64,000 bases of DNA from an uncultured Flavobacteriales bacterium. Lineage in GTDB: Bacteria; Bacteroidota; Bacteroidia; Flavobacteriales_G; Salibacteraceae. The position numbers and the translations under genes were made by a program. Every line of letters begins with the position of its first letter. Within the stretch, counting starts at the first letter, position 1. Positions 8,495-48,749 of the stretch are shown here, piece by piece. Under the pieces are notes generated by a model. It was not told the origin of the DNA. It worked only from the letters and a program-made list of their open reading frames with translations, and searched no databases. The DNA lies in assembly GCA_937121175.1 (NCBI GenBank), contig CAKZKD010000023.1:1-64000 (forward strand), in the 5' to 3' direction.

Positions 8495-9940
8495 ATGAAT
8501 AACGACATCGAAAACACTTCAATTCCGAAGAATGAGATAAATATCCATTCGCTTTCAAATGAAGATGACGTAGGAAATGTTTTCGAATGGAATGGACGAA
8601 TTTTTCGGGGTATTAGAAAAAAATATGTTGATGACATTCGTAATCTCATTGATTCAGGTTTACTTGACGAGTTAAAGAAAAACAACTTGTTCCCTAAAAC
8701 TACCATCACCGATTTAGAACTGAACGGTTATGAAATGGTGTTGGAGCATGAAAAAATCCCACTAACTAGTTACGTTTACGAATGGTCGTTCACTATGTTA
8801 AAGGACGCGGCAATTAATGCAATACGCGTAAACATCATAGCAGACAAATTTGGCTATCAGACTAAAGATTGCCATCCCTACAATTTTATTTTCTCAAACA
8901 ACAATCCTGTTTATATAGATTTAGGAAGTTTTTTTTTAAAGCCAAAAACAAAGAATTGGCTCCCACTATCTGAATTTATGCAATTTTATTTCTATCCATT
9001 AAAACTTTGGAAAAATGGAAATGAGGCAATGATTCGTTCATTCTTCTCGCATTGTCTGCGTGGCGGGTTCTGGCATAGCATTTACTACCGTCTATCTTCA
9101 CCATTTTCTCACTTTTTATCTACTAATACTATAGACAAACTTGCCAACGGTATTTATAAATACAGGTCATTATCTTTTGTAGATAGTGCTGATATCGAGA
9201 AAAAAGCACCTTGGAATCTGGGCTCAACTGTTACTAAACTTCGAGACGCTGGAATGTTACCTTTTCTTACAGTAAACCTCCATCGCTTAGAGAAAAAAGT
9301 TTCCAGGATTCAACAACGAAAGCAAGAATCTACGTGGTCTAATTATCACGATCAATATCAATTGGAAAGTCAGGAATTGAAATCCTCTTCCCGATTTAAC
9401 AGAATCGTTGAAATTATAAACGAACTTAAAATAACTTCGGTGTTTGAACTAGCTGGTAATCAAGGAGTAATGAGCAGGCTTTTAATTCAGCAAACTGATG
9501 TTAGTCGTGTAATTTGTACAGATTACGATGCTAATGCTGTAGATCAATTGTACAAAATGTGTAAGCAAGAAAAGTTAAACATAACCCCACTTGTTTACAA
9601 TGTAAAAATACCAGTAGATGAAACTCCATTGCCTCCTCTCGAAGATAGAATAGACACGCCGGAATGCTCGATGGGTCTTGCCTTATTGCACCACTTAATT
9701 TTAACCCAAGGTATGCCTTTGAGTAAAATATTTAATCGGTTCAAAGTTTTTACCTCTAAATACGTTTTCATTGAATTTATGCCTTTGGGTTTGTGGAGCA
9801 AACAATCACCCAATCCACATATACCAGATTGGTATAATGTAGATTGGTTCAGAGAAGAATTTTGTAAAAACTTTGAGCTTGTTATTGAAGAACAACTTGA
9901 AACTAACCGAATCTTGTTCGTTGGAAAACTAACTGATTAA
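8495..9940 (+). CDS. Kinase-like domain fused to class I SAM methyltransferase
   Basis: A 481-residue two-part cytoplasmic protein. Residues about 30-190 look like a small-molecule kinase (aminoglycoside-phosphotransferase/LPS-kinase fold). KDCHPYNFIF at 124-133 gives a catalytic-loop Asp125 and metal-binding Asn130, and YIDLGSF at 140-146 supplies the second Asp (142). Residues about 300-460 are a Rossmann methyltransferase, with motif I FELAGNQG at 317-324, an acidic TDYDANAVD at 342-350 and LALLHHLI later. The Gly-rich loop is weaker than in typical enzymes. It lies 9 bases before a flippase gene, which suggests modification of a glycan or its lipid-linked precursor. Both activities are inferred. 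A family member may carry only one active half. Confidence 0.7.
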   Translation: MNNDIENTSIPKNEINIHSLSNEDDVGNVFEWNGRIFRGIRKKYVDDIRNLIDSGLLDELKKNNLFPKTTITDLELNGYEMVLEHEKIPLTSYVYEWSFTMLKDAAINAIRVNIIADKFGYQTKDCHPYNFIFSNNNPVYIDLGSFFLKPKTKNWLPLSEFMQFYFYPLKLWKNGNEAMIRSFFSHCLRGGFWHSIYYRLSSPFSHFLSTNTIDKLANGIYKYRSLSFVDSADIEKKAPWNLGSTVTKLRDAGMLPFLTVNLHRLEKKVSRIQQRKQESTWSNYHDQYQLESQELKSSSRFNRIVEIINELKITSVFELAGNQGVMSRLLIQQTDVSRVICTDYDANAVDQLYKMCKQEKLNITPLVYNVKIPVDETPLPPLEDRIDTPECSMGLALLHHLILTQGMPLSKIFNRFKVFTSKYVFIEFMPLGLWSKQSPNPHIPDWYNVDWFREEFCKNFELVIEEQLETNRILFVGKLTD

Positions 9941-9949
9941 GAAAACCTA

Positions 9950-11446
9950 GTGGGTATAATAGCAAGGCAAGGTTCAAAATCCTCCCTACTGCATGTTGGT
10001 GGGGTTTTCGTTGCAGCAATCAGTACACTATATATTTACCCGAAATTTACTGAAGTTTATGGATTCTCGCAGTTCCTTCTCACTTCGGCCTTGTTACTAT
10101 TTCCTTTTATGGGACTTGGTAGCAGTGGAGCTTTAATTAAGTTTTTTCCAAAATTTAGAACAGAAGATAACGCAAATCACGGGTTACTGCTGTATGCCCT
10201 AACACCATTTCTGTTTATTTTTCTGTTTAGTGGAATAATCTTCGGAGTTTGGGGCGAACCCATTATTGGGTATCTCAAACAGGAATGGCCTAGCAGTTAT
10301 ACTCACCTTTACGATTACTACTTAATTATTTTAATACTTGCTGCAACCCTGGTTATTGTTTACAATCTATATTACTACATTTCTAATTACGGTAGGATTG
10401 TAGTTCCAAACCTTTTCGTTCAATTCGGATATAAAGTTTTCTTACCCCTACTAATTATTGCAACTGCTCAAAATTATTCTTTGCAATCAATTGGTGTTTT
10501 GATTATTTGCTTTTATGTAATGGTAATAGCCTCGCTGTTACTATACATGAAAAAGCTTGGAATATTTAATTTAACGCTACCTGACAGGCGTTTCATCACC
10601 CGCAGTATTGGCAAAGAAGTAAGAAAGTATTCTTTATTTTCCTCTCTAAATCATCTCGGAAGCTTAATCGTTTTTAGGATTGACGGATTTATGATTTCAA
10701 TAATTTTAGGTTTTACAGCGAACGGAATTTATTCAATTATGCTGTTTATCAGTGGAATAATTGACATTCCAGCAAAATCTATTAACACCATTAGTTCTCC
10801 CTTAATTTCTCAACACTGGAAGAACAATGAGCTCGAAAAAATCAATACAATTTACCAAAAAAGTGCCACTACAATTACAATAGCATCCGTGGCGATTGTA
10901 ATAATGATTTGGTTCGGAATTGATTTTGTCGCTTCCATTTCGGCGGATCCCGAAAAATTCTTTATTGGCAAAACAGCTCTTGTCTTTTTAATGGTTTGTC
11001 GTTTAATAGATGGCATTACGAGTATTAATGATCAAATTATCGTGTTCTCAGATAAATATAAATACAACTTGGTTTTCATCGTTTTTCTTGGCGTCATCAA
11101 CATTGTTCTCAATTTGGTATTTATTTCTTCGTGGGGTTTAACTGGAGCTGCTTTTGCAACCTGCGTTTCAATATTGTTCTACAATGTTATCAAACTAGTT
11201 TTTATCTACTGGCAATTCAAAATGATACCATTTTCCAAAAACCTTTTATTCGTACTCATTTTGGGAGCCTGCGCGTTTTCCACCCTTTACCTATTAACCG
11301 CATATTTAAATTCTTTCTATTTATTTGTTATCGCTGGTTTAGTCATTGTTTGCATTTATATTCCTCTCATTTTTGTTTGCAAAATATCGGAAGAATTTAA
11401 TAAATTGATATTAACTTATTTAAAACTATTCCGACCTTCATCATAG
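9950..11446 (+). CDS. Wzx-type polysaccharide flippase
   Basis: A 498-residue polytopic membrane protein of the MOP (MviN/Wzx) superfamily, which flips undecaprenyl-linked oligosaccharides across the inner membrane. I take the GTG at 9950: the N-terminus GIIARQGSKSSLLHVGGVFV followed by LYIYPKFTEVYGF is characteristic of the family. At least twelve hydrophobic segments alternate with short loops. It starts 9 bases after the kinase-like/methyltransferase gene, so the two are probably one operon. The particular glycan is unknown. Confidence 0.88.
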   Translation: MGIIARQGSKSSLLHVGGVFVAAISTLYIYPKFTEVYGFSQFLLTSALLLFPFMGLGSSGALIKFFPKFRTEDNANHGLLLYALTPFLFIFLFSGIIFGVWGEPIIGYLKQEWPSSYTHLYDYYLIILILAATLVIVYNLYYYISNYGRIVVPNLFVQFGYKVFLPLLIIATAQNYSLQSIGVLIICFYVMVIASLLLYMKKLGIFNLTLPDRRFITRSIGKEVRKYSLFSSLNHLGSLIVFRIDGFMISIILGFTANGIYSIMLFISGIIDIPAKSINTISSPLISQHWKNNELEKINTIYQKSATTITIASVAIVIMIWFGIDFVASISADPEKFFIGKTALVFLMVCRLIDGITSINDQIIVFSDKYKYNLVFIVFLGVINIVLNLVFISSWGLTGAAFATCVSILFYNVIKLVFIYWQFKMIPFSKNLLFVLILGACAFSTLYLLTAYLNSFYLFVIAGLVIVCIYIPLIFVCKISEEFNKLILTYLKLFRPSS

Positions 11447-38822: not shown

Positions 38823-38830
38823 TAATTTTG
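38823..38830 (+). promoter_or_regulatory. -7 box (TAATTTTG) for the 4,6-dehydratase gene
   Basis: A full TAnnTTTG match 15 bases before ATG 38846, with a GTTG at 38802-38805 near the -33 position. It contains the TTG that a longer frame would use as a start, which argues for the ATG. Confidence 0.55.
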
Positions 38831-38845
38831 GCTCAAAGCACTTCC

Positions 38846-40714
38846 ATGTTTATATTTAAGACGGAAAATACTCCTAGGTGGATAATCTTCGCGATTGACC
38901 TTGGTATTTGCATTTTTTCCATTTTACTTGCCTACTTGCTTCGTTTCAATTTTCAGATTCCACCTTCCTATATTGAAACCTTTGTGTATGTGTTCCCTTT
39001 TTTACTTTCCTTAAGAATTGCCAGCTTTTTTATATTCAGAACGTACAGTGGTATTATCCGATACACTTCAAGTATCGATACCCAACGGATTTTTGTTGTT
39101 GTAACGGCTGTCAGTATTCTTGCCGCTGTCCTAAACGGAATTTCTTACTACTTTATCAATCAAAAATTTATAATCCCATTTTCGGTGGTTATCATCGAAT
39201 ATTTGAGTACAACCTTTTTAATGATAGGCTTCAGAATTACCGTAAAGTTGATCTATTTCGAATTTAAAAATGCATCGAAAAACAAAAAACGAATTGTAAT
39301 TTATGGAGCTTCAGACGAGGGAATTGTAACCAAACGAACCTTAGAAAGAGACGAAGACCACAAGTACAAAGTGGTTGCTTTTATTGCAGACAAAAACAGC
39401 AAAATCGGAAAGAAAATAGAAGGCGTAACCATTCACCCAATTGAGCGATTAGAGTACCTGATTGAAAACGAAGAAATTGACGAAGTAGTCATTGCTGTCA
39501 ACAATTTAGCAAAAACCAGAAAACAAGAAATTGTAGAACGTGCCCTACCTAAAAATGTCAAGGTATTGCACGTTCCGCCAGTTAAAAACTGGATTAATGA
39601 TGAGCTAAGTTCTAATCAAATTCAAGAAGTAAAAATTGAGGATTTATTGGGTCGAGAACCAATTCACTTAGATTCGATTAACATAAAAGGTCAGTTGAGC
39701 GAAAAGCGGGTTTTAATAACTGGTGCTGCAGGTTCAATAGGCTCTGAAATTGTTAGACAAGTTGCCAGTTTTTTTCCCTCCAAGATTATCTTGCTCGATC
39801 AAGCAGAATCACCACTTTACGAAATTGAAATTGAGATTATTGAGCAATTTGGAAACAACCTCTGCGAAATTGTTGTAGCCGATGTTGCCAATGCAAACCG
39901 AATGGATAATGTGTTCAGAACATTCAAACCGGATGTAGTTTATCACTGCGCCGCATACAAGCACGTTCCTATTATGGAGCACAATCCTTCAGAAGCAGTA
40001 TTGACCAACATTCTCGGCACAAAAATTATGGTGGATTTATCGCACCAGTACAATGTAGATTCTTTTGTGATGGTATCCACAGACAAAGCCGTCAATCCAA
40101 CAAACGTTATGGGAGCATCCAAGCGTGTTGCTGAGATTTATGCGCAGAGTAAAAACAAGATTTCTAAAACAAAATTCATCACAACTCGATTCGGAAATGT
40201 CTTGGGAAGCAACGGCTCTGTGATTCCGCTTTTTAAGAAACAAATTGCAAACGGAGGTCCTGTCTGTGTTACTCATCCAGAAATTACTAGGTATTTTATG
40301 ACCATTCCAGAGGCATGCCAACTGGTTTTGGAGGCTGGTGCAATGGGAACTGGTGGCGAAATATTCATTTTTAATATGGGAGCGCCGGTCAAAATCATTG
40401 ACTTAGCTAAGAAAATGATTAAGCTTTCTGGCTTTAAAGTAGGGCGCGATATTGATATAAAAATAACTGGACTTCGCTCTGGTGAAAAGTTGTACGAAGA
40501 GTTACTGAACAACGCTGAGAACACCGTTCCAACTCACCACCCAGAAATTATGGTGGGTAAAGTTCGCGATTACGATCTTGAAGACATTGAAGAGCCAATT
40601 CGAGAATTAACTACTAACCCAAGTGAGCAGGACAACTTTAAGCTCGTTGCTTCAATCAAAAAATTAGTTCCTGAATTTGTAAGTCAAAATTCGGTTTACA
40701 GCCAATTAGATTAA
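38846..40714 (+). CDS. Membrane NDP-sugar 4,6-dehydratase (PglF/WbpM/CapD type)
   Basis: A 622-residue enzyme with four N-terminal membrane helices (to about residue 125). Next is a CoA-binding-like Rossmann domain (KRIVIYGASDEG), then the catalytic short-chain dehydrogenase domain with GAAGSIGSEIVRQ. The catalytic TDK triad is in STDKAVNPTNVMGASKR, with Met at the usual Tyr position, as in the UDP-GlcNAc 4,6-dehydratase branch. It makes the 4-keto-6-deoxy intermediate for amino-deoxy sugars in surface glycans, at the inner face of the inner membrane. The aminotransferase that would follow is not next to it. Confidence 0.9.
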   Translation: MFIFKTENTPRWIIFAIDLGICIFSILLAYLLRFNFQIPPSYIETFVYVFPFLLSLRIASFFIFRTYSGIIRYTSSIDTQRIFVVVTAVSILAAVLNGISYYFINQKFIIPFSVVIIEYLSTTFLMIGFRITVKLIYFEFKNASKNKKRIVIYGASDEGIVTKRTLERDEDHKYKVVAFIADKNSKIGKKIEGVTIHPIERLEYLIENEEIDEVVIAVNNLAKTRKQEIVERALPKNVKVLHVPPVKNWINDELSSNQIQEVKIEDLLGREPIHLDSINIKGQLSEKRVLITGAAGSIGSEIVRQVASFFPSKIILLDQAESPLYEIEIEIIEQFGNNLCEIVVADVANANRMDNVFRTFKPDVVYHCAAYKHVPIMEHNPSEAVLTNILGTKIMVDLSHQYNVDSFVMVSTDKAVNPTNVMGASKRVAEIYAQSKNKISKTKFITTRFGNVLGSNGSVIPLFKKQIANGGPVCVTHPEITRYFMTIPEACQLVLEAGAMGTGGEIFIFNMGAPVKIIDLAKKMIKLSGFKVGRDIDIKITGLRSGEKLYEELLNNAENTVPTHHPEIMVGKVRDYDLEDIEEPIRELTTNPSEQDNFKLVASIKKLVPEFVSQNSVYSQLD

Positions 40715-40743
40715 GTTGGCAACTTAAGATTAAATTTTACAAT

Positions 40744-41502
40744 ATGCCAATTCGCCAATCAATTACTCTAATTCTAACCTCGATCTTGTTAAGTCTTTGC
40801 TTTGTTTCTACAAAAGCTCAAGAAGACACAACTAATTTGGATTCCCTTCAGATTTGGAACGCTAGCAAGAAGTACATCTACGATGCTTTTTACATAGATT
40901 CAATTGGAGACACCATTACCAAAGAGCAAATCATTATTCAACCTATCCGAAAAATGCACAAGTACAAGATTGCAGAAGACCAAATCGTATTAAAATACAT
41001 CTACAATTATTCCGAAGCTGACTCTGCGCGCTTAGCTCCAAATCCAGTGAATGGCAATGAGTGGACGCAACAAAACGGATCCATGAAATGGCTTAAAACT
41101 GTACGGGAGGGAGCTATTGAAACTAATGGATCAGTTTGGTTGCATCCTTTTAGAATGAATCAATATGTATTAACTGAAATAGCTCCATTCCCAGGAGTTC
41201 GATTTCCTCTGCACATAAACAAAAAATGGGATATGACTTTAACCGTTTTTAGAGGCTGGGGCATCTTCAAAGGCAAGCACAAACAAACCATGATTGTTAC
41301 TGACAAAAAGGATTACACATTACAAATAGGACAAATGAATAATTGCTGGGTAATATTTGGATTGAGCACGCACAAAAATCTAGGAACAAGCCAAGTAGAA
41401 TATATTTATCATGAACAATATGGCTTTCTTTCGATGCAATACAAATTTTACAATGGTCAGCGCATTACGTTTATTCTTAGTGAGTTAATTACTGATAGTT
41501 GA
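40744..41502 (+). CDS. Secreted hypothetical protein
   Basis: A 252-residue protein with signal peptide (QSITLILTSILLSLCFVSTKAQ). The mature part is beta-rich, with no Cys pair or catalytic motif that I recognise. Its pieces are IIIQPIRKMHKYKIAEDQIV, a central SMKWLKTVREGAIETNGSVW and a C-terminal EYIYHEQYGFLSMQYKFYNG. It may be a periplasmic single-domain beta-sandwich. It follows the dehydratase by 29 bases and may be co-transcribed. Confidence 0.68.
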   Translation: MPIRQSITLILTSILLSLCFVSTKAQEDTTNLDSLQIWNASKKYIYDAFYIDSIGDTITKEQIIIQPIRKMHKYKIAEDQIVLKYIYNYSEADSARLAPNPVNGNEWTQQNGSMKWLKTVREGAIETNGSVWLHPFRMNQYVLTEIAPFPGVRFPLHINKKWDMTLTVFRGWGIFKGKHKQTMIVTDKKDYTLQIGQMNNCWVIFGLSTHKNLGTSQVEYIYHEQYGFLSMQYKFYNGQRITFILSELITDS

Positions 41503-41550
41503 TATTACAAGGCTAATCGATTAAAATTATGGAAGCCATACTTGTAGAAA

Positions 41551-42135
41551 TCAACCGTGCACCTGCTCAGAGTTTCCAAACTCAGCAATTACAGAAGCTT
41601 CGTACTCTAAAAAATCACTCCAGACTTTTTCAACATCCAAAACTCCTTCCCCATACTTTCTCGCAAATTTCAGAAACATAGTATAGTGTTCGGCCTCGCT
41701 CTTCATGAGTGCAAAGTAAAATTTACTGAGGTCTTCGTCCTTTATATTTTCTGCTAGTACTTTAAATCGCTCACAGCTCCGTGCCTCAATCATTCCGGCA
41801 AATAATAACCGATAAACCAAAGCCTTTTTACGATCTAATCCTTTGGGAATAAACTTCATCAGTAAATTAACATAGGCGTCCTTTCTTTCCCAACCCAGTT
41901 CACAATCGCGTTCTTTTAGCTTTTTTATCACCATCTGAAAGTGAGCCATCTCTTCGCGGGCAAGATCAGCCATTGCCTCAACCAAGTCTAAATACTCAGG
42001 ATAATTTACAATTAGACTTATAGCAGTAGAAGCAGCTTTTTGCTCACAAAACGCATGATCAGTCAAAATCTCTTGAATGTTTTTTTCTGCAATGTTGACC
42101 CAACGTGGATCGGTAGGTAATTTTAGCTTCAGCAT
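41551..42135 (-). CDS. miaE: tRNA-(2-methylthio-N6-isopentenyl adenosine37) hydroxylase
   Basis: MiaE hydroxylates the isopentenyl group of ms2i6A37 in tRNAs reading UNN codons, using a ferritin-like di-iron site. The 194 residues carry LAREEMAHF, IEARSCERF and MKSEAEHYTMF, which give the Glu and His ligands, and the C-terminal four-helix arrangement. Length is normal. A -7 box is placed 17 bases before the ATG. Confidence 0.9.
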   Translation of the reverse strand: MLKLKLPTDPRWVNIAEKNIQEILTDHAFCEQKAASTAISLIVNYPEYLDLVEAMADLAREEMAHFQMVIKKLKERDCELGWERKDAYVNLLMKFIPKGLDRKKALVYRLLFAGMIEARSCERFKVLAENIKDEDLSKFYFALMKSEAEHYTMFLKFARKYGEGVLDVEKVWSDFLEYEASVIAEFGNSEQVHG

Positions 42136-42152
42136 AATATTCTAATAGGTCA

Positions 42153-42160
42153 CAAAATTA
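42153..42160 (-). promoter_or_regulatory. -7 box (TAATTTTG on minus) for miaE
   Basis: Plus-strand CAAAATTA, a full match on the minus strand 17 bases before the miaE ATG. Confidence 0.55.
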
Positions 42161-42178
42161 GGTAACACTCGTCAAAGA

Positions 42179-42958
42179 ATGGCTTTATTTGCTGCTGTGA
42201 TAAAAGTAATTGCACATAGAGGAGCATCGGCTTACGCACCAGAAAACACCATGGCTGCTTTTAAACTTGCAATCGAACAAAAAGCCGATATAATTGAGTT
42301 GGATGTCCGCCCTAGTCTCGACCAAAAGGTGGTAGTATTCCACGACGCTAAACTAAACCGAACAACACCCAGGAGAGGTTTTGTAAAAAGTAAATCGCTA
42401 TACGTTCTTCAAAATATTAATGCGGGAAGTTGGTTTGGCAAAAGAGAATACGCTTCGGAATTAATTCCTGATTTCAGCGAGGTGTTAGAACTAACAAAAG
42501 ACAAATGTGAATTGCTCGTAGAAATTAAAAGTGAAGGACGGGTGGTTCGGCTCAATTTCTTAAGAAATTTAATGAACGCTATTAACTTGGCCAGCGCTAA
42601 ATCTCGTGTAATCATTCAATCGTTTGATACTCGTATCCTTAACCTGCTTCAAAAGCACTACCCGGGCTACCGTTACCAAAAGCTAATTATAGTAAAAATT
42701 CCTGGATTCAAAATTCAATTAGATAAGCGCGTGATGGTTGAAAATATTCTACGTAGAAAGCACTATGAATCCATTAATGTGGATCACCGCTTTATTACCA
42801 AAATTTTTATCGATAAAATCCATAGAAACAACAAACAAGTTTTCTGCTGGACGGTGAACGATCCGCAGCGCATGAAAAATCTTATTGAATTGGGTGTTAA
42901 TGGAATAATAACAAACCATCCAGACTTATTGCATATGGTTATCAAGGAGCTGAACTAA
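42179..42958 (+). CDS. Glycerophosphodiester phosphodiesterase
   Basis: A GDPD/UgpQ-family TIM-barrel enzyme of 259 residues that releases glycerol 3-phosphate from glycerophosphodiesters. Catalytic segments are VIAHRGASAYAPENTMAAF (His), IIELDVRPSLDQKVVVFHD (Glu, Asp, His) and ELLVEIKSE, and the barrel ends VFCWTVNDPQRMKNLIELGVNGIITNHPDL. There is no clear signal peptide, so it is cytoplasmic, although the short MALFAAVIK start could be mis-set. Confidence 0.88.
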   Translation: MALFAAVIKVIAHRGASAYAPENTMAAFKLAIEQKADIIELDVRPSLDQKVVVFHDAKLNRTTPRRGFVKSKSLYVLQNINAGSWFGKREYASELIPDFSEVLELTKDKCELLVEIKSEGRVVRLNFLRNLMNAINLASAKSRVIIQSFDTRILNLLQKHYPGYRYQKLIIVKIPGFKIQLDKRVMVENILRRKHYESINVDHRFITKIFIDKIHRNNKQVFCWTVNDPQRMKNLIELGVNGIITNHPDLLHMVIKELN

Positions 42959-42972
42959 TAAAAAATTAAGAA

Positions 42973-42980
42973 TAGTTTTG
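42973..42980 (+). promoter_or_regulatory. -7 box (TAGTTTTG) for the Skp/OmpH gene
   Basis: A full TAnnTTTG match 29 bases before the ATG at 43010. Confidence 0.55.
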
Positions 42981-43009
42981 CAGCCCAATTTTCACAAAAT
43001 TAAAATCGA

Positions 43010-43627
43010 ATGAAAAACATACTACTTGGTTGGAACATTGTACTTACTGCGCTAGTTATCTACCTTTTTACTCAATCTTCTGGGCCTACAGAAGAATTAA
43101 CTGGAATATCGGATTCAACTGTCGTCGAAGAACCGACTAAAGCGCCAATGGAAGGCGACGTATATTTTGTGAATACCGATAGTTTGTTTGGTGCTTTTGA
43201 GATGTCGAATGTTTTGCAAGAAGAATTGGTTGCCGAACAAATGCGCATGAAGAAAAAATACGACGGCAGGTTGAGCCAACTTGAAGCAGAATACAATGAC
43301 TTACGAGAACGCGCTCCTTACATGACCCAGACACAAGGCGAAGCTGCTCAGCAGAAGCTTATGGTGAAGCAACAAGAATTGGTAAAAATGGAGGAAGACC
43401 TAACCAATAAGTTGGCTAAAAAAGAACAAGATATGGTTCGAAAAATTAAAGATGCACTTACCATGTACCTTAAAGAATACCAAGAAGAAAAAGGCTATCA
43501 ATTTGTTCTTGGAAAAAGTGAAATTAGTGGCGTATTGTACGCTTCAGATGAATTTGATTTGACACAAGATGTTTTGGAAGGACTCAATAAAAAATACGAA
43601 GAAGCAAACAAAGTGGAAGAAAAATGA
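43010..43627 (+). CDS. OmpH/Skp-family periplasmic chaperone
   Basis: A 205-residue protein with an N-terminal hydrophobic signal or anchor (ILLGWNIVLTALVIYLFT). It continues with EGDVYFVNTDSLFGAFE, the short beta strand of Skp proteins, then a long charged coiled coil (about 65-155) and YQFVLGKSEISGVLYASDEFDLT, the conserved C-terminal strand. Skp-like proteins carry unfolded outer-membrane proteins across the periplasm. The stop overlaps the DUF4924 start by 4 bases. Confidence 0.85.
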   Translation: MKNILLGWNIVLTALVIYLFTQSSGPTEELTGISDSTVVEEPTKAPMEGDVYFVNTDSLFGAFEMSNVLQEELVAEQMRMKKKYDGRLSQLEAEYNDLRERAPYMTQTQGEAAQQKLMVKQQELVKMEEDLTNKLAKKEQDMVRKIKDALTMYLKEYQEEKGYQFVLGKSEISGVLYASDEFDLTQDVLEGLNKKYEEANKVEEK

Positions 43628-44184
43628 TAGTTGCACTTCAAAAAAAGAAAGAGAATATTGTTGAGTACTTACTCTACATGTTTAACATTGAAGGAATGCT
43701 TCGAACCCTAAATTTCGACATGAACGAAATTGAGGCAGCACTGGTAAATCAATACGATGTTGACGAGGCGAAAAAAGAAGAAATAAGGACTTGGTACGCC
43801 AATCTAATAAAAGAAATGCGCGACTCTAATATCGTTGAAAAAGGACATTTAGAAGAATTGCATGAAATTATTACAGAACTCAACTTATTGCATAGCACCT
43901 TACTCAACATTTACCAAGATGAGCAATACAAAAAGCTCAATGTAAAAGCCAATGAGGCCATTATTGATTTAATGGATAAATCTGGAAAGAAAAACATTGG
44001 ACCAATCGAGGCGGCAATTAATGGTTTGTTTGGTTTACTAATGCTTCGTATGAGCAACAAAGAAATTAGTCCGGCAACTGAATCTGCATTTACCAATATC
44101 TCTGAATTACTTGCTTTGTTGGCTATCAAATTCAAAGACATGAAGGCAGGCAATTTGGGTATGCCACCGCATCAGAAGAACTAA
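43624..44184 (+). CDS. DUF4924-family protein
   Basis: A 186-residue helical cytoplasmic protein starting IVALQKKKENIVEYLLYMFNIEGMLR, the opening of the Bacteroidota DUF4924 family. It has no signal or membrane segment and no known catalytic motif. Its function is unknown. Overlap with the Skp/OmpH gene (ATGA) points to translational coupling. Confidence 0.8.
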   Translation: MIVALQKKKENIVEYLLYMFNIEGMLRTLNFDMNEIEAALVNQYDVDEAKKEEIRTWYANLIKEMRDSNIVEKGHLEELHEIITELNLLHSTLLNIYQDEQYKKLNVKANEAIIDLMDKSGKKNIGPIEAAINGLFGLLMLRMSNKEISPATESAFTNISELLALLAIKFKDMKAGNLGMPPHQKN

Positions 44185-44267
44185 AAATAGTTCAGTCCCA
44201 AGAACTAGCATTCTTTTCATTGTTTTTTGGCCAAGGCTTCTCGACCTCATTTATTCTAGTCAATAAA

Positions 44268-44297
44268 AAAAGGAGAACCTTTTCAGACTCTCCTTTT
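44268..44297 (-). terminator. Terminator downstream of tRNA-His (bidirectional)
   Basis: Nine-base-pair stem AAAAGGAGA / TCTCCTTTT with a 12-base loop. Read on the minus strand it ends in a T7 run, 13 bases after the tRNA-His end. Read on the plus strand it would follow DUF4924 with a shorter T run. Confidence 0.75.
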
Positions 44298-44310
44298 CAA
44301 TTTAACTTTG

Positions 44311-44384
44311 GGTGGAAGATCGGTCTCGAACCGACGACCCTCGGTACCACAAACCGATGCTCTAACCAACTGAGCTACAACCAC
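44311..44384 (-). tRNA. tRNA-His (GTG)
   Basis: The minus strand folds into a cloverleaf with D stem GCTC/GAGC, anticodon stem TCGGT/ACCGA around loop TTGTGGT (anticodon GTG) and T arm GTCGG-TTCGAGA-CCGAT. An extra G at 44385 faces discriminator C, the G-1 hallmark of tRNA-His. CCA is not encoded. In the acceptor stem, GTGGTTG pairs with CTTCCAC, leaving two adjacent U-U mispairs at 5-68 and 6-67. The window also encodes tgt, which would modify G34 of this tRNA. Confidence 0.9.
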
Positions 44385-44398
44385 CATTTTAAGGGCGG

Positions 44399-44406
44399 CA
44401 AATGTA
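44399..44406 (-). promoter_or_regulatory. -7 box (TACATTTG on minus) for tRNA-His
   Basis: Plus-strand CAAATGTA, a full match on the minus strand 13-14 bases before the tRNA 5' end. Confidence 0.6.
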
Positions 44407-44458
44407 AATAAATTCTTTTGGGATTATCAAATTGAATCGACAATAAAAACCAAATACT

Positions 44459-44466
44459 TAGGTTTG
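44459..44466 (+). promoter_or_regulatory. -7 box (TAGGTTTG) for GT4-flippase-asnB
   Basis: A full TAnnTTTG match 19 bases before the GT4 ATG; it would drive the three overlapping genes that follow. Confidence 0.55.
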
Positions 44467-44485
44467 TGCCATATCGTCTCTGTGC

Positions 44486-45616
44486 ATGAGTAAAAGTTTA
44501 AAAATCCTGGCATTAGCCAGTTGGTATCCAAATGAAAAAGACCCTCAACAGGGAATTTTCATTAAACACCAACTTGAAGCTATAGGTAATCAGCACAAAG
44601 TTGACCTCCACACATTGCATGAATCTAAAATCCATTCGGAAACACGCATGCATAAAATAGAAGGTTTCACGCATTTTGAACATTTTTACTCAACACCAAA
44701 TGGCGTCTTCAAACAATTGAATTGGTATCGAAGATGGCTGAGTATTATAAACACGTTACAGAAAGGGGAATACGACCTATTGCATGTACATGTAGCCTAT
44801 CCTATTGGAATTATAGCCCTAAAAGTTCAAAATAAATTAGACATTCCATTATTGGTAAGTGAACATTGGTCTGGATACAATAACAGCATAGAATATTCCG
44901 GCCCTCTCAGAAAATTAATTACCGCTAAGCTAATGAACACAGCTTCCGAAATCATTGTTCAATCAGAGTTTTTAAAAACTATTATGACCCAAAATAGGCT
45001 ATTGGGTTCGTATAACGTAATTCCAAACATCGTTCATTTTACCGAATCTCTTGATAGTAAGAACCATCTCAATTCTGACAAAATTTTTATGAACATTGCG
45101 GACCATGTCGATTCAGATAAGAATATCTCAGGACTTCTTAAATCCTTTGCCAAAGCCAGTGAATCGAATAAAAACATTCATCTATTACAAATTGGTAATG
45201 GTCCTGATGAGGAGCGTTTAAAAAAACTAGCCACCGATCTTAATCTCAATGATCGGATAACATGGTTGGGTAGGTTGTCAAACGAAAAGGTGTTAATTCA
45301 GATCCACAAATGCGATTACGGGATAATAAATAGTAATCAAGAGACTTTTTCCGTAGTTACATTTGAATTCTTGGCCAGTAAAAAACCTATAATTATTACC
45401 GATTGTGGTGGCCCTATCGAATATCTACATAAAGGATTTGGAATTAAAACAGCCGTTGGAAATGAAGAAAAACTAAGTGAGGCTATTTTGGAAATGGCTG
45501 AACAAAAAGAAAACTTCGAAATGGATGATTTAGCCCAACAAGTACGTCAGCAATTTTCGGCAAAATCATTTATCGAAAAAATAAATATTGTGTACCAAAA
45601 CGCTTTGAGTCAATGA
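44486..45616 (+). CDS. GT4-family glycosyltransferase
   Basis: A 376-residue GT-B enzyme. It opens LKILALASWYPNEKDPQQGIFIKHQ, typical of capsule/exopolysaccharide GT4 transferases, with HVHVAYPIGIIAL and EHWSGYNNS in the acceptor half. The C-terminal donor half has QIGNGPDEERLKKLA and the ETFSVVTFEFLASKKPIIITDCGGP site. Its TGA overlaps the flippase ATG (ATGA). Sugar specificity unknown. Confidence 0.88.
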   Translation: MSKSLKILALASWYPNEKDPQQGIFIKHQLEAIGNQHKVDLHTLHESKIHSETRMHKIEGFTHFEHFYSTPNGVFKQLNWYRRWLSIINTLQKGEYDLLHVHVAYPIGIIALKVQNKLDIPLLVSEHWSGYNNSIEYSGPLRKLITAKLMNTASEIIVQSEFLKTIMTQNRLLGSYNVIPNIVHFTESLDSKNHLNSDKIFMNIADHVDSDKNISGLLKSFAKASESNKNIHLLQIGNGPDEERLKKLATDLNLNDRITWLGRLSNEKVLIQIHKCDYGIINSNQETFSVVTFEFLASKKPIIITDCGGPIEYLHKGFGIKTAVGNEEKLSEAILEMAEQKENFEMDDLAQQVRQQFSAKSFIEKINIVYQNALSQ

Positions 45617-46878
45617 TTTCTAAAATCATAGGAACAACTTTTTCACGTAGTTTAATCGCTGTTTTCGGATTGCTAATATTAATTCTGAACACTCGATATC
45701 TAGGCGCAGAAAAACTTGGGCAATTGGCAATTTACATTATTATTATTTCCGCTATTGTTCAAGTATCTGAATTTGTCGGTGGGCCTTCTTTGGTGTTTTT
45801 ACAAACTAAGTATTCTATCCGTCATTTACTTATCGCATCGTATGGGTGGTCGATTCTAGTTTCGCTAGTTTCTTGTGTTTTTCTTTATTTGACTGCAGGT
45901 TTCAACAATAGTCAATCCTGGATTATTTCAGCAATTATTTTTTTACAATCATTGAATCATGTCCATCTTCATTTATTAGTAGGAAAAGAACACATTAAAG
46001 GATATAATCTTTCATCACTTATGCTGTCTTTGGTCATTGTTTGTGGAATCGCCTATTCATACATCAGTTTGGAAAAAGCAGACGTTATCGACTATCTAAA
46101 AATCTACTTCTTCGCGTTAAGCCTTTCCTTGATTATAAGTTCATGGTTTGTTCTCAGAATTCCTTCATCAATTACCACAACTTATAGCCTGAAATTAATG
46201 TTGAAGGAAATTTTAAATTACGGTGCAATTATTCAAATAACCAATCTTCTTCAATTTGGAGTGTACCGATTAAACTATTTAATTTTAGAAGGCTTTACTT
46301 CAACGGCTAATTTAGGAATCTATTCAGTGGGTAATCAGCTAAGTGAAAAAGCACTTGTTCCCGGCAATGCAATTAGCCTAGTTCAATATTCCAGTATTGC
46401 AAACACACCCGACAAAAACAAATCAATTCCATTGACTTTTAAGATGATTATCCTAAGTGGAGGCATTACACTTTTTACAATTTTACTCTTGTTGGTTACA
46501 CCTAGTCAATGGTTTTCATTTATTTTGGGAACCGAATTCAAGCCAATTAGCGGGCTGTTCATGTATTTAGCTCCAGGAGTTTTTGCCTTGTCCATTTCAG
46601 TTATTTATAGTCATTACTTTGCTGGTTTAGGACTGTACCGAAACAATTTAATTTCAAGCGGATTAGGACTTATATTGACCATCGTACTAAGTTATTTACT
46701 TATACCAAAACACGGAATGAAGGGTGCAGCATTAGCTTCGTCATTTGTTTTTATTGGTCAAACAATAATTCAAATCTATTTCTTTAAGAACGAGACTAAA
46801 TTGAGCTGGCGTGGAATACTCAAAGGTCACAAGAATGCTATAAGTTATTACTTTACCAAACTTTTTAGAAGAAAATAA
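45613..46878 (+). CDS. Polysaccharide flippase (Wzx/MviN superfamily)
   Basis: A 421-residue protein with about 12 membrane segments, beginning SKIIGTTFSRSLIAVFGLLILILNTRYLGAE, the usual flippase N-terminus. It is shorter than the other flippase in this window. It overlaps GT4 by 4 bases and asnB by one base. It probably exports the lipid-linked product of this three-gene unit. Confidence 0.82.
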   Translation: MISKIIGTTFSRSLIAVFGLLILILNTRYLGAEKLGQLAIYIIIISAIVQVSEFVGGPSLVFLQTKYSIRHLLIASYGWSILVSLVSCVFLYLTAGFNNSQSWIISAIIFLQSLNHVHLHLLVGKEHIKGYNLSSLMLSLVIVCGIAYSYISLEKADVIDYLKIYFFALSLSLIISSWFVLRIPSSITTTYSLKLMLKEILNYGAIIQITNLLQFGVYRLNYLILEGFTSTANLGIYSVGNQLSEKALVPGNAISLVQYSSIANTPDKNKSIPLTFKMIILSGGITLFTILLLLVTPSQWFSFILGTEFKPISGLFMYLAPGVFALSISVIYSHYFAGLGLYRNNLISSGLGLILTIVLSYLLIPKHGMKGAALASSFVFIGQTIIQIYFFKNETKLSWRGILKGHKNAISYYFTKLFRRK

Positions 46879-48749
46879 TGTGCGGTATTAGTGGTATAGT
46901 ACTCAATGGTGAAATTCCATTCAAGGAAATCGAACATGAGGTTCACCAGATGAATGAACTGCAGAAGCATCGAGGACCAGACAATGAAGGCATTTTAGTT
47001 TTTAATTCTGAAGGTGAAGTAGTTTCTCAGAATGAAGCAGTTGGACGAGTGGGATTTGGCCATCGTCGGCTTTCAATTATCGATCTTTCTCCAGAAGCAA
47101 ACCAACCCATGTTTGATGAATCAAAAAGTCATAGCATCATTTTTAATGGAGAAATATTCAACTACATTGAAATTAGAAATGAACTCTTAGCTGCAGGAAT
47201 TTCTTTTCAAACACAATCAGACACTGAAGTTATGCTGAAAGGCTACCTTCATTGGGGGACATCCTTTTATGAGAAAATTGAAGGAATGTGGGCATTTGCT
47301 ATGTACGACATTGCAAAAAATACAATCGTCCTAAGTCGCGACCGCACTGGCGTTAAACCTCTATTTTATACCCACGATAAGAAAGGTTTTCGTTTTGCAT
47401 CAGAAATTAAGGCTTTGCTTCCGTTCACATCCAACGATGTACATCTTGAATCGCTCCAAAAGTTCATCTCCAAAAATCAATTTCAATTTGGTACGGATAC
47501 TTTCTTTTCTGAAATTCAAGAATTAAAACCAGGTTACGAACTACGTGTAAACCCTAAAACGCTCCAAACCACAATTTCAGCTTACTTTAATCCCTACGAT
47601 GTACTGGTGGATGAAAAAACATTTTCAAAATCTACCGATGAATTAAGCGAGGAGTTGCACGAAATTTTAACCAAAGTAATCCTACAACATTCAAGGTCAG
47701 ATGTTCCAGTGGGAAGTTGTCTAAGTGGTGGCCTAGATAGTTCCACGATAGTTGGATTGCTTAGGACCTTAGATCCTACAATTTCGATTCCAGTGTTTTC
47801 TGCTATTTTTAAGGAGAATGAAATTGATGAATCCGAATTGATTTCGGCATCAGTCCAAAAACACAACTTGGCTTTTAATCCAATAGAACCTACATCGGAG
47901 GAATTCCTAAAGACCCTGGAGAAAGTTGCTTACGCTCAAGAATTTCCGCTTATTTCTACCAGCACCTTTGCGCAGTACAAGGTGATGGAACGAGCTAGCC
48001 AGCTTGGAACGAAAGTATTAATCAACGGACAAGGAGCTGATGAGCTGTTGGGGGGATATTTCAAATATGGATTATTCCAACAGAAGCAGAATTTGTACAA
48101 ATTTCAGTTTTTGAAAGCCCAAAAAGGACCAGCAAATCTGAAACTTCAATTCAAATCGATGGCCAAAGACACTTTATCAAAGTTTGATGTTTTGGACTCA
48201 TTTTTCAAAAAAGACTTACAGTTCCTAAATTTGGAATTGAGACGAGGAAAGGAGGACAATTCGCAACCACTAGGCAACCTCAACGAATATTTATTGCATG
48301 ACTATTACAACGGCTTTCTAGCTGGACTACTTCGCGCGGAAGACCGAAACAGTATGAATTTTTCGATTGAATCAAGAGTTCCATTTGCTAGTAGTCACAA
48401 ATTGGCTCAATGGGCATTTGGACTTCCTTCCAAACACAAGTTCAATCAAAAAATTAATAAACCACTTTTGAGAAACATGCTGACTAAATACGATATTATC
48501 CCAAAATCAATTTTAGCTAAAGAAAATAAACTTGGATTTAGCACTCCAATGAATCAATGGTTGTATAACAACCATGAAGAATTAATTCAATACATTGATT
48601 ACATCCCAATTGAATTTTGCGATACTAAAAAACTAAAATCAAGCCTTCATTCGCAAATGATAAATAACAACAGTTTTATTGAAGAAAAACCATCAACTTT
48701 TAAATGGATTTCCTTAGGTATTTGGTTTAAAGTTTTCAAAAACCGCTAA
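46878..48749 (+). CDS. asnB: Glutamine-dependent asparagine synthase-type amidotransferase
   Basis: A 623-residue enzyme with an N-terminal class II glutaminase domain, catalytic Cys2 in MCGISGIVL, RGPDNEG, FGHRRLSIID and FNGEIFNY. A C-terminal AMP-forming synthase domain follows, with PP-loop SCLSGGLDSSTIVG. The length fits AsnB. Because it is translationally coupled to a GT4 and a flippase, it may instead amidate a sugar acid, as AsnB-like proteins in O-antigen loci do. Both remain possible. Confidence 0.85.
   Translation: MCGISGIVLNGEIPFKEIEHEVHQMNELQKHRGPDNEGILVFNSEGEVVSQNEAVGRVGFGHRRLSIIDLSPEANQPMFDESKSHSIIFNGEIFNYIEIRNELLAAGISFQTQSDTEVMLKGYLHWGTSFYEKIEGMWAFAMYDIAKNTIVLSRDRTGVKPLFYTHDKKGFRFASEIKALLPFTSNDVHLESLQKFISKNQFQFGTDTFFSEIQELKPGYELRVNPKTLQTTISAYFNPYDVLVDEKTFSKSTDELSEELHEILTKVILQHSRSDVPVGSCLSGGLDSSTIVGLLRTLDPTISIPVFSAIFKENEIDESELISASVQKHNLAFNPIEPTSEEFLKTLEKVAYAQEFPLISTSTFAQYKVMERASQLGTKVLINGQGADELLGGYFKYGLFQQKQNLYKFQFLKAQKGPANLKLQFKSMAKDTLSKFDVLDSFFKKDLQFLNLELRRGKEDNSQPLGNLNEYLLHDYYNGFLAGLLRAEDRNSMNFSIESRVPFASSHKLAQWAFGLPSKHKFNQKINKPLLRNMLTKYDIIPKSILAKENKLGFSTPMNQWLYNNHEELIQYIDYIPIEFCDTKKLKSSLHSQMINNNSFIEEKPSTFKWISLGIWFKVFKNR

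Follow-up and report, generated by a model that had tools for sequence, protein, structure and literature searches.

A Flavobacteriales kinase-methyltransferase fusion from a divergent clade of the NoeA/Lani_1194 family, with changed gene neighbors and a possible role in marking a surface glycan

INTRODUCTION

WbdD of Escherichia coli O9a, a methyltransferase-kinase that acts as a chain terminator, phosphorylates the terminal mannose of its glycan and then methylates the phosphate; its D351 is essential for the kinase, N356 and D369 are metal ligands, and H132, H133, R203 and Y16 are essential for phosphate methylation (PMC3482155). Two further systems, set here against our protein by their published descriptions, come close to it in part. 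ORF6 of Klebsiella pneumoniae O7 likewise terminates with a methyl phosphate and has a sequence distinct from that of WbdD, but unlike the protein described below it places the methyltransferase before the kinase and carries extra CBM, coiled-coil and glycosyltransferase modules (PMC11231755). The Lcin_0519 family also combines a kinase with a methyltransferase and has O-antigen ABC exporter genes among its neighbors, although it is different from WbdD and its domains are oriented otherwise than in Lani_1194 (PMC9758233).

The closest described proteins are Lani_1194 of Legionella anisa and its homologue NoeA, which form a kinase-methyltransferase family in which both domains were reported for 94% of about two thousand kinase-domain homologues and Arg stands for the catalytic Lys (PMC9758233). 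The gene for NoeB/Lani_1195, with a predicted alkaline-phosphatase fold, was a neighbor in 38% of 816 neighborhoods, and Lani_1194 was called functionally uncharacterized (PMC9758233). In symbionts of Medicago, noeA is a gene for the host range of nodulation (Ardourel 1995, cited in both PMC4053727 and PMC9758233). Within the open-access literature on noeA, noeB and nodL, no title announced a biochemical study of NoeA, and we found no activity or substrate reported for the family in open-access sources. As the architecture is already published (PMC9758233), the kinase-methyltransferase fusion itself is not new.

RESULTS

A two-domain gene upstream of a flippase-like gene. The window, i.e., the whole stretch of DNA analyzed, comprises 64,000 nucleotides from an uncultured Flavobacteriales bacterium and contains the following features (positions within the window).

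8495..9940, + strand: kinase-methyltransferase fusion gene, here P0001; 481 aa, ATG start, exact open reading frame (ORF); divergent clade of the NoeA/Lani_1194 family
8534..9319, + strand: kinase-like domain, residues 14-275 (core 14-190; 191-258 of low confidence in the model); AlphaFold model, matched to protein kinases by VIA
8867..8920, + strand: codons from D125 through N130 to D142, with the catalytic loop and the metal-binding stretch; invariant D/N/D; subthreshold alignment with WbdD D351/N356/D369
9323..9937, + strand: SAM-dependent methyltransferase domain of class I, spanning residues 277-481; VIA Z scores reach 17.6, and WbdD is the top PDB match for the family profile
9689..9694, + strand: H399-H400, paired with WbdD H132/H133
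9908..9910, + strand: R472, paired with WbdD R203
9950..11446, + strand: 498-aa membrane protein resembling a flippase; widespread among related genomes and no conserved partner of P0001
11587..14079, + strand: YfhO-like membrane protein, 830 aa (context); PF09586, E value of 1.3e-7, 30.8 bits against a cutoff of 28.5

The initial annotation, made from the letters and ORFs alone, had described a 481-residue protein at 8495-9940 with a kinase-like D125, N130 and D142 and a methyltransferase motif FELAGNQG, and had placed it 9 bases ahead of a flippase gene. Frame and motifs are indeed there (FELAGNQG corresponds to F317-G324), and the next gene starts with GTG at 9950, 9 bases after P0001 and on the same strand. 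Database searches with the single sequence returned little: no Pfam or NCBIfam model reached its cutoff, PHROG gave no match at an E value of ≤0.1 and the PDB sequences none at ≤10. Subthreshold Pfam hits fell in each half, DUF4135 at residues 122-149 (E value of 0.041) in the kinase and Methyltransf_25 at 316-370 (E value of 0.14) in the methyltransferase. Without a Pfam, NCBIfam, PHROG or PDB match, routine annotation would therefore tell little about this protein. A promoter and terminator scan was uninformative, with 16 promoter-like and 8 terminator-like sites where 23.4 and 4.7, respectively, were expected.

Predicted folds. Modeled as a whole from a 21-row alignment, P0001 gave a pLDDT of 78.4 and a pTM of 0.81, with residues 191-258 uncertain, and the PDB matches listed were nearly all SAM-dependent methyltransferases, with VIA Z scores up to 17.6 over 187 residues. 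The class I methyltransferase proposed for the C-terminal half is thus borne out as a predicted fold in residues 277-481. The kinase part modeled alone with AlphaFold (residues 14-275; pLDDT of 78.9, pTM of 0.76) was matched by protein kinases in all of the 50 best VIA hits listed (Z of 10.0 to 11.3, rmsd of 3.5 to 5.7, 182 to 210 residues aligned). Among the 50 best Foldseek matches listed, 49 were kinases by name and one was a chain of a pre-40S ribosomal particle. A protein-kinase-like fold is accordingly predicted for the N-terminal half, as the first reading of the sequence had supposed. That reading had also pointed toward aminoglycoside phosphotransferases (APH) and lipopolysaccharide (LPS) kinases, and here the fold search led to protein-kinase-like folds in general: Pfam gave no APH or LPS-kinase match at an E value of ≤1, and the sole small-molecule kinase among the 50 Foldseek matches listed was the amicoumacin kinase AmiN, at ranks 4 and 15. 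WbdD was absent among the 50 best matches listed in each PDB structural comparison, which excludes nothing.

Searches for phage or viral relatives by sequence found none in phages, viral contigs or PHROG, and a phage or viral origin of P0001 was rejected on that ground. As a separate observation on the models, a predicted giant-virus protein in BFVD (A0A481Z196, 409 aa, from Mimivirus LCMiAC01) resembles P0001 over the greater part of its model (E value of 2.9e-20, TM score of 0.60 by query length), so that the same two-domain architecture seems to occur, at the level of predicted structures, in a giant virus.

Family membership and conserved residues. P0001 is a member of the known but little-studied NoeA/Lani_1194 family. 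Homology extends over most of the length at 19 to 38% identity (the NoeA sequence was compared, Lani_1194 by description), and Sinorhizobium meliloti NoeA, among 39 matching records in a plasmid collection, is a homologue at 21.5% identity, its gene lying between nodL and noeB. The domain order, the approximate length, the D/N/D residues, R38 and the invariant His pair and Arg of the methyltransferase are shared with the family. P0001 differs in being only 19 to 28% identical to proteins outside its own clade, and in carrying Ala rather than Gly at SAM-loop position 320, as in 8 of the 40 alignment rows.

The set used to assess conservation comprised 39 distinct proteins in 40 rows, with P0001 entered once more as L064, and was restricted to ORFs of ≥250 aa with an E value of ≤1e-30 to the family profile. 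D125, N130, D142, S145, W155, W281, Y284, N322, H399, H400 and R472 are invariant in all 39, although R472 of L049 is unsafe because that ORF is cut. Invariance of the three kinase residues among homologues, which the initial annotation had offered as a test of its kinase assignment, is hence complete. The motifs are beyond chance, their columns being invariant in 39/39 distinct family proteins and both halves being modeled with the expected folds. R38 of P0001 replaces the usual catalytic Lys (Arg in 38/40 rows, Met in L050, a gap in one row).

Comparison with WbdD. When the family profile (alignment A4) was run against 177,635 PDB sequences, four WbdD sequences came first (E values of 2.3e-6 to 4.8e-6; next 2.2e-4), and a subthreshold stretch of the same search aligned DDVRPWN...LIDFGS of WbdD with the kinase motif. 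By hhalign, the methyltransferase part matched WbdD of E. coli HS with a probability of 96.6%, pairing H399, H400, E427 and R472 with WbdD H132, H133, E160 and R203. The invariant Y284 is set opposite WbdD D28, not Y16, with a spacing to the His pair of 115 versus 116. As a control, the family profile was compared with 13 further methyltransferases, 10 of which had been chosen because they resemble WbdD; L052 scored 3.5e-11 against 4.1e-11 for WbdD, L061 showed H, H, E and R, L059 H, H and R, and the His pair, taken by itself, occurred in four. As judged from these sequences, the resemblance of the methyltransferase to WbdD is not exclusive. A significant profile match between the kinase domains was sought and not found: the match probabilities were 3.7% (kinase slice) and 1.9 to 2.0% (full-length WbdD), not significant, compared with ≤0.9% for the best other ORF among 52 and ≤1.2% for the best of 40 shuffles.

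Like WbdD, P0001 unites kinase and class I methyltransferase domains within a single chain. In WbdD, however, the methyltransferase is N terminal and the kinase C terminal, the reverse of P0001, which ends with its methyltransferase at residue 481, without a coiled-coil ruler or polymerase-recruiting tail. P0001 as WbdD proper was rejected for its domain order and missing coiled coil. Because of the methyltransferase controls, the weak kinase match and the reversed order, the chemical analogy with WbdD is suggestive, not proven. A search for full-length WbdD-like proteins in 198 genomes of the phylum gave one-domain matches only among those listed.

A deep clade with changed partners. Scanning contigs with P0001 and a Flavobacterium relative yielded six further loci of the P0001 type, from Bacteroidales (L045), Flavobacterium (L046 and L047), Arcobacter (L048), a Rhizobium-labeled metagenome-assembled genome (MAG; L049) and Sulfurimonas (L050). 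The 39-protein tree splits P0001 and these relatives, seven rows in all with L010 in place of L047, from the other 32 proteins on a long branch with support of 100/100. A P0001 match occurs in 4 of 60 related genomes, its own included; the remaining 34 genomes of family-level group f1 have none, and across the phylum 14 of 395 genomes match, again with its own. Among 249 genomes of the genus of G279, a genome whose contig (L029) has the gene layout of L047 and is taken to be the same, 18 matched at an E value of ≤1e-20, and 2 were of the P0001 type (about 1e-194, versus 1.7e-54 and weaker).

Neighbors were scored with profiles built in this analysis and with Pfam. For the rest of the family, 19 of the 32 tree proteins were examined (13 loci with short flanks, L084-L096, were left out), and a sulfatase-fold neighbor was found in 17 of the 19, the exceptions being L040 and L044. 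It was adjacent by profile in 14 of these (4 of the 14 had built the profile, and L034 was weak at 3e-6) and detected by Pfam Sulfatase in 3 (L006, L032 and L033). One locus has sulfatase-fold genes on either side of the kinase-methyltransferase gene (L036:7197-11645). No such neighbor was seen in any of the six other P0001-type loci (by profile, with flanks by Pfam, L047 by profile only), and none resembling NoeB/Lani_1195 among the 10 window genes scanned, which also sets P0001 apart from NoeA and Lani_1194.

Instead, in three of the six other clade members (L045, L046 and L047), the gene directly upstream encodes Wzt, the ATPase of an ABC glycan exporter, recalling the order wzm-wzt-wbdD in E. 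coli HS. The gap after wzt is 21 bases in L045 and 5 bases in L046 and L047; the latter two are near-copies, and hence the adjacency counts as two of five independent cases. Wzt_C was detected by Pfam in L045 and L046, as the sole match in each genome, and by profile in L047. The Arcobacter gene lies among glycosyltransferase and methyltransferase genes, and that of L049 between a mechanosensitive channel gene and a hexapeptide acyltransferase-like gene. In the Sulfurimonas locus (L050:3969-10176), the P0001-type gene shares 8 bases with the end of a gene for a Maf flagellin glycosyltransferase that has flagellin alongside, an arrangement hinting at a modified flagellin glycan. The frame of L049 (L049:3151-4572) is broken or frameshifted, and the label of its MAG, Rhizobium sp. 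Q54, may be wrong for this clade, with contamination possible.

A deep clade lacking the sulfatase-fold partner is what looks new here. In the passages and title lists consulted from the open-access literature, in which the name Lani_1194 came up in a single paper, we found no description of a P0001-type clade with changed partners.

The flippase and the export route. The product of 9950-11446 is likely a Wzx flippase. In the window protein itself, Pfam recognized no family at an E value of ≤1, and no NCBIfam or PHROG model matched at the thresholds used; of two homologues scanned with Pfam, L079 passed the Polysacc_synt cutoff (E value of 1.7e-8) and L072 had no match. The link between the two genes on which the initial annotation had built did not hold up as a conserved one. 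This flippase family is missing from all 26 homologue locus records (25 distinct, 5.4 to 20 kb each; an unrelated flippase would escape), and 51 of 60 related genomes, counting its own, carry a homologue (partial in some cases), versus 4 of 60 for P0001. In a genome of the same genus, G003, P0001 is missing and the homologue adjoins nadC, which is on the opposite strand; galE and the epimerase gene precede it there as they do in the window. The flippase was rejected as a conserved partner on these three grounds, and adjacency to it alone says little about P0001.

Concerning export in this genome, Wzt_C has no match, a further difference from WbdD. ABC2_membrane has two matches, in frames of about 1,000 aa, a size at which they do not look Wzm-like. 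ABC export was rejected here on these results, and together with nine Wzy_C matches elsewhere in the genome they make a Wzx/Wzy-type route likely. The window also holds a second glycan cluster (38828-48749), with a CapD-like Polysacc_synt_2 protein, a glycosyltransferase, an asparagine synthase-like gene and a second flippase-like gene at 45613-46878 (Polysacc_synt subthreshold).

DISCUSSION

The reading we favor, to which we give about even credence, is that P0001 is a bifunctional enzyme that, by analogy with WbdD, phosphorylates a lipid-linked surface glycan and then methylates the phosphate before later export. From the folds, residues and neighborhoods described above, we infer the two reactions and the order in which they occur, as well as the substrate and the way it is exported, as follows. 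The N-terminal protein-kinase-like domain would use the gamma-phosphate of ATP to phosphorylate a hydroxyl of the lipid-linked glycan on the cytoplasmic side, with D125, N130 and D142 as putative metal and phosphoryl-transfer residues and R38 in place of Lys. The C-terminal class I methyltransferase, through H399, H400, E427 and R472, would methylate that phosphate to a methyl phosphate. The glycan might then be exported by a Wzm/Wzt ABC transporter in some clade members and by a Wzx-type flippase, perhaps the adjacent one, in this genome. The first suggestion from the sequence, that a glycan or its carrier is phosphorylated and then methylated, stands as the best-supported guess, with WbdD as its chemical precedent, while the part of that suggestion that leaned on the flippase is unsupported.

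The pairing with the flippase may indeed be accidental, P0001 having come to lie upstream of a lineage-wide flippase and using another exporter or none, a reading compatible with the favored one and one that we consider evenly balanced against a real pairing. The shared strand and 9-base gap speak for a real pairing, as does the lack of Wzt_C in the genome, which makes a flippase-type route likely; the very different frequencies of the two genes (own genome counted in both), the G003 arrangement, the absence of the family from the 26 homologue records and the nine Wzy_C matches elsewhere speak for an accident.

Other readings concern the chemistry itself. In glycan loci, the majority of class I methyltransferases modify hydroxyls, and both domains could be active but independent, the kinase at one site and the methyltransferase on a sugar hydroxyl, so that no methyl phosphate is formed. 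The family profile matches L052 as well as it matches WbdD, and WbdD of E. coli O8 methylates a sugar hydroxyl without phosphorylation (PMC3482155), but H399, H400 and R472, invariant in 39/39 proteins, align with the WbdD residues around the phosphate, and we regard independent domains as unlikely. A NoeA-like action, directed at a small glycolipid or signal that is secreted (similar to a Nod factor, or a phospholipid) rather than at a polysaccharide, and normally partnered by a membrane enzyme of the sulfatase/alkaline-phosphatase fold, would suit the homology with NoeA, the position of its gene between nodL and noeB and the sulfatase-fold neighbors in 17 of the 19 other-family loci. Such neighbors are, however, lacking in the six other P0001-type loci and the 10 window genes scanned, and L045 to L048 and L050 lie in glycosyltransferase or exporter clusters; we consider this reading improbable. 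Finally, atypical kinase folds with other chemistry exist (SelO), and the N-terminal domain might be kinase folded and yet no phosphotransferase, either a pseudokinase scaffold or an AMP-transferring enzyme. The Arg at the usual Lys position (Met in L050) would fit, as would the lack of an identifiable ion-pair glutamate in the NoeA/Lani_1194 family according to its published description (PMC9758233). The invariance of all three metal and catalytic residues in 39/39 proteins goes against it, and we hold a non-phosphotransferase to be likewise improbable.

Taking phosphorylation followed by phosphate methylation as the preferred reading, a wider proposal can be made for the clade, tentatively and in the awareness that it is more probably wrong than right. 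Its members in Bacteroidota, Campylobacterota and the one Rhizobium-labeled MAG could be reversed-order analogues of WbdD that mark glycans with methyl phosphate, the sulfatase-fold partner having been swapped for exporters, namely, Wzt_C ABC transporters reading the mark in some lineages and a flippase route without Wzt in the organism of the window. We know of no reader for a methyl-phosphate mark on a flippase route.

For the family described in PMC9758233, the alignment with WbdD yields a concrete and testable prediction, a methyl phosphate on a glycan. The Wzt-linked members would be the easiest place to test it, because there the expected product would sit on an exported polysaccharide.
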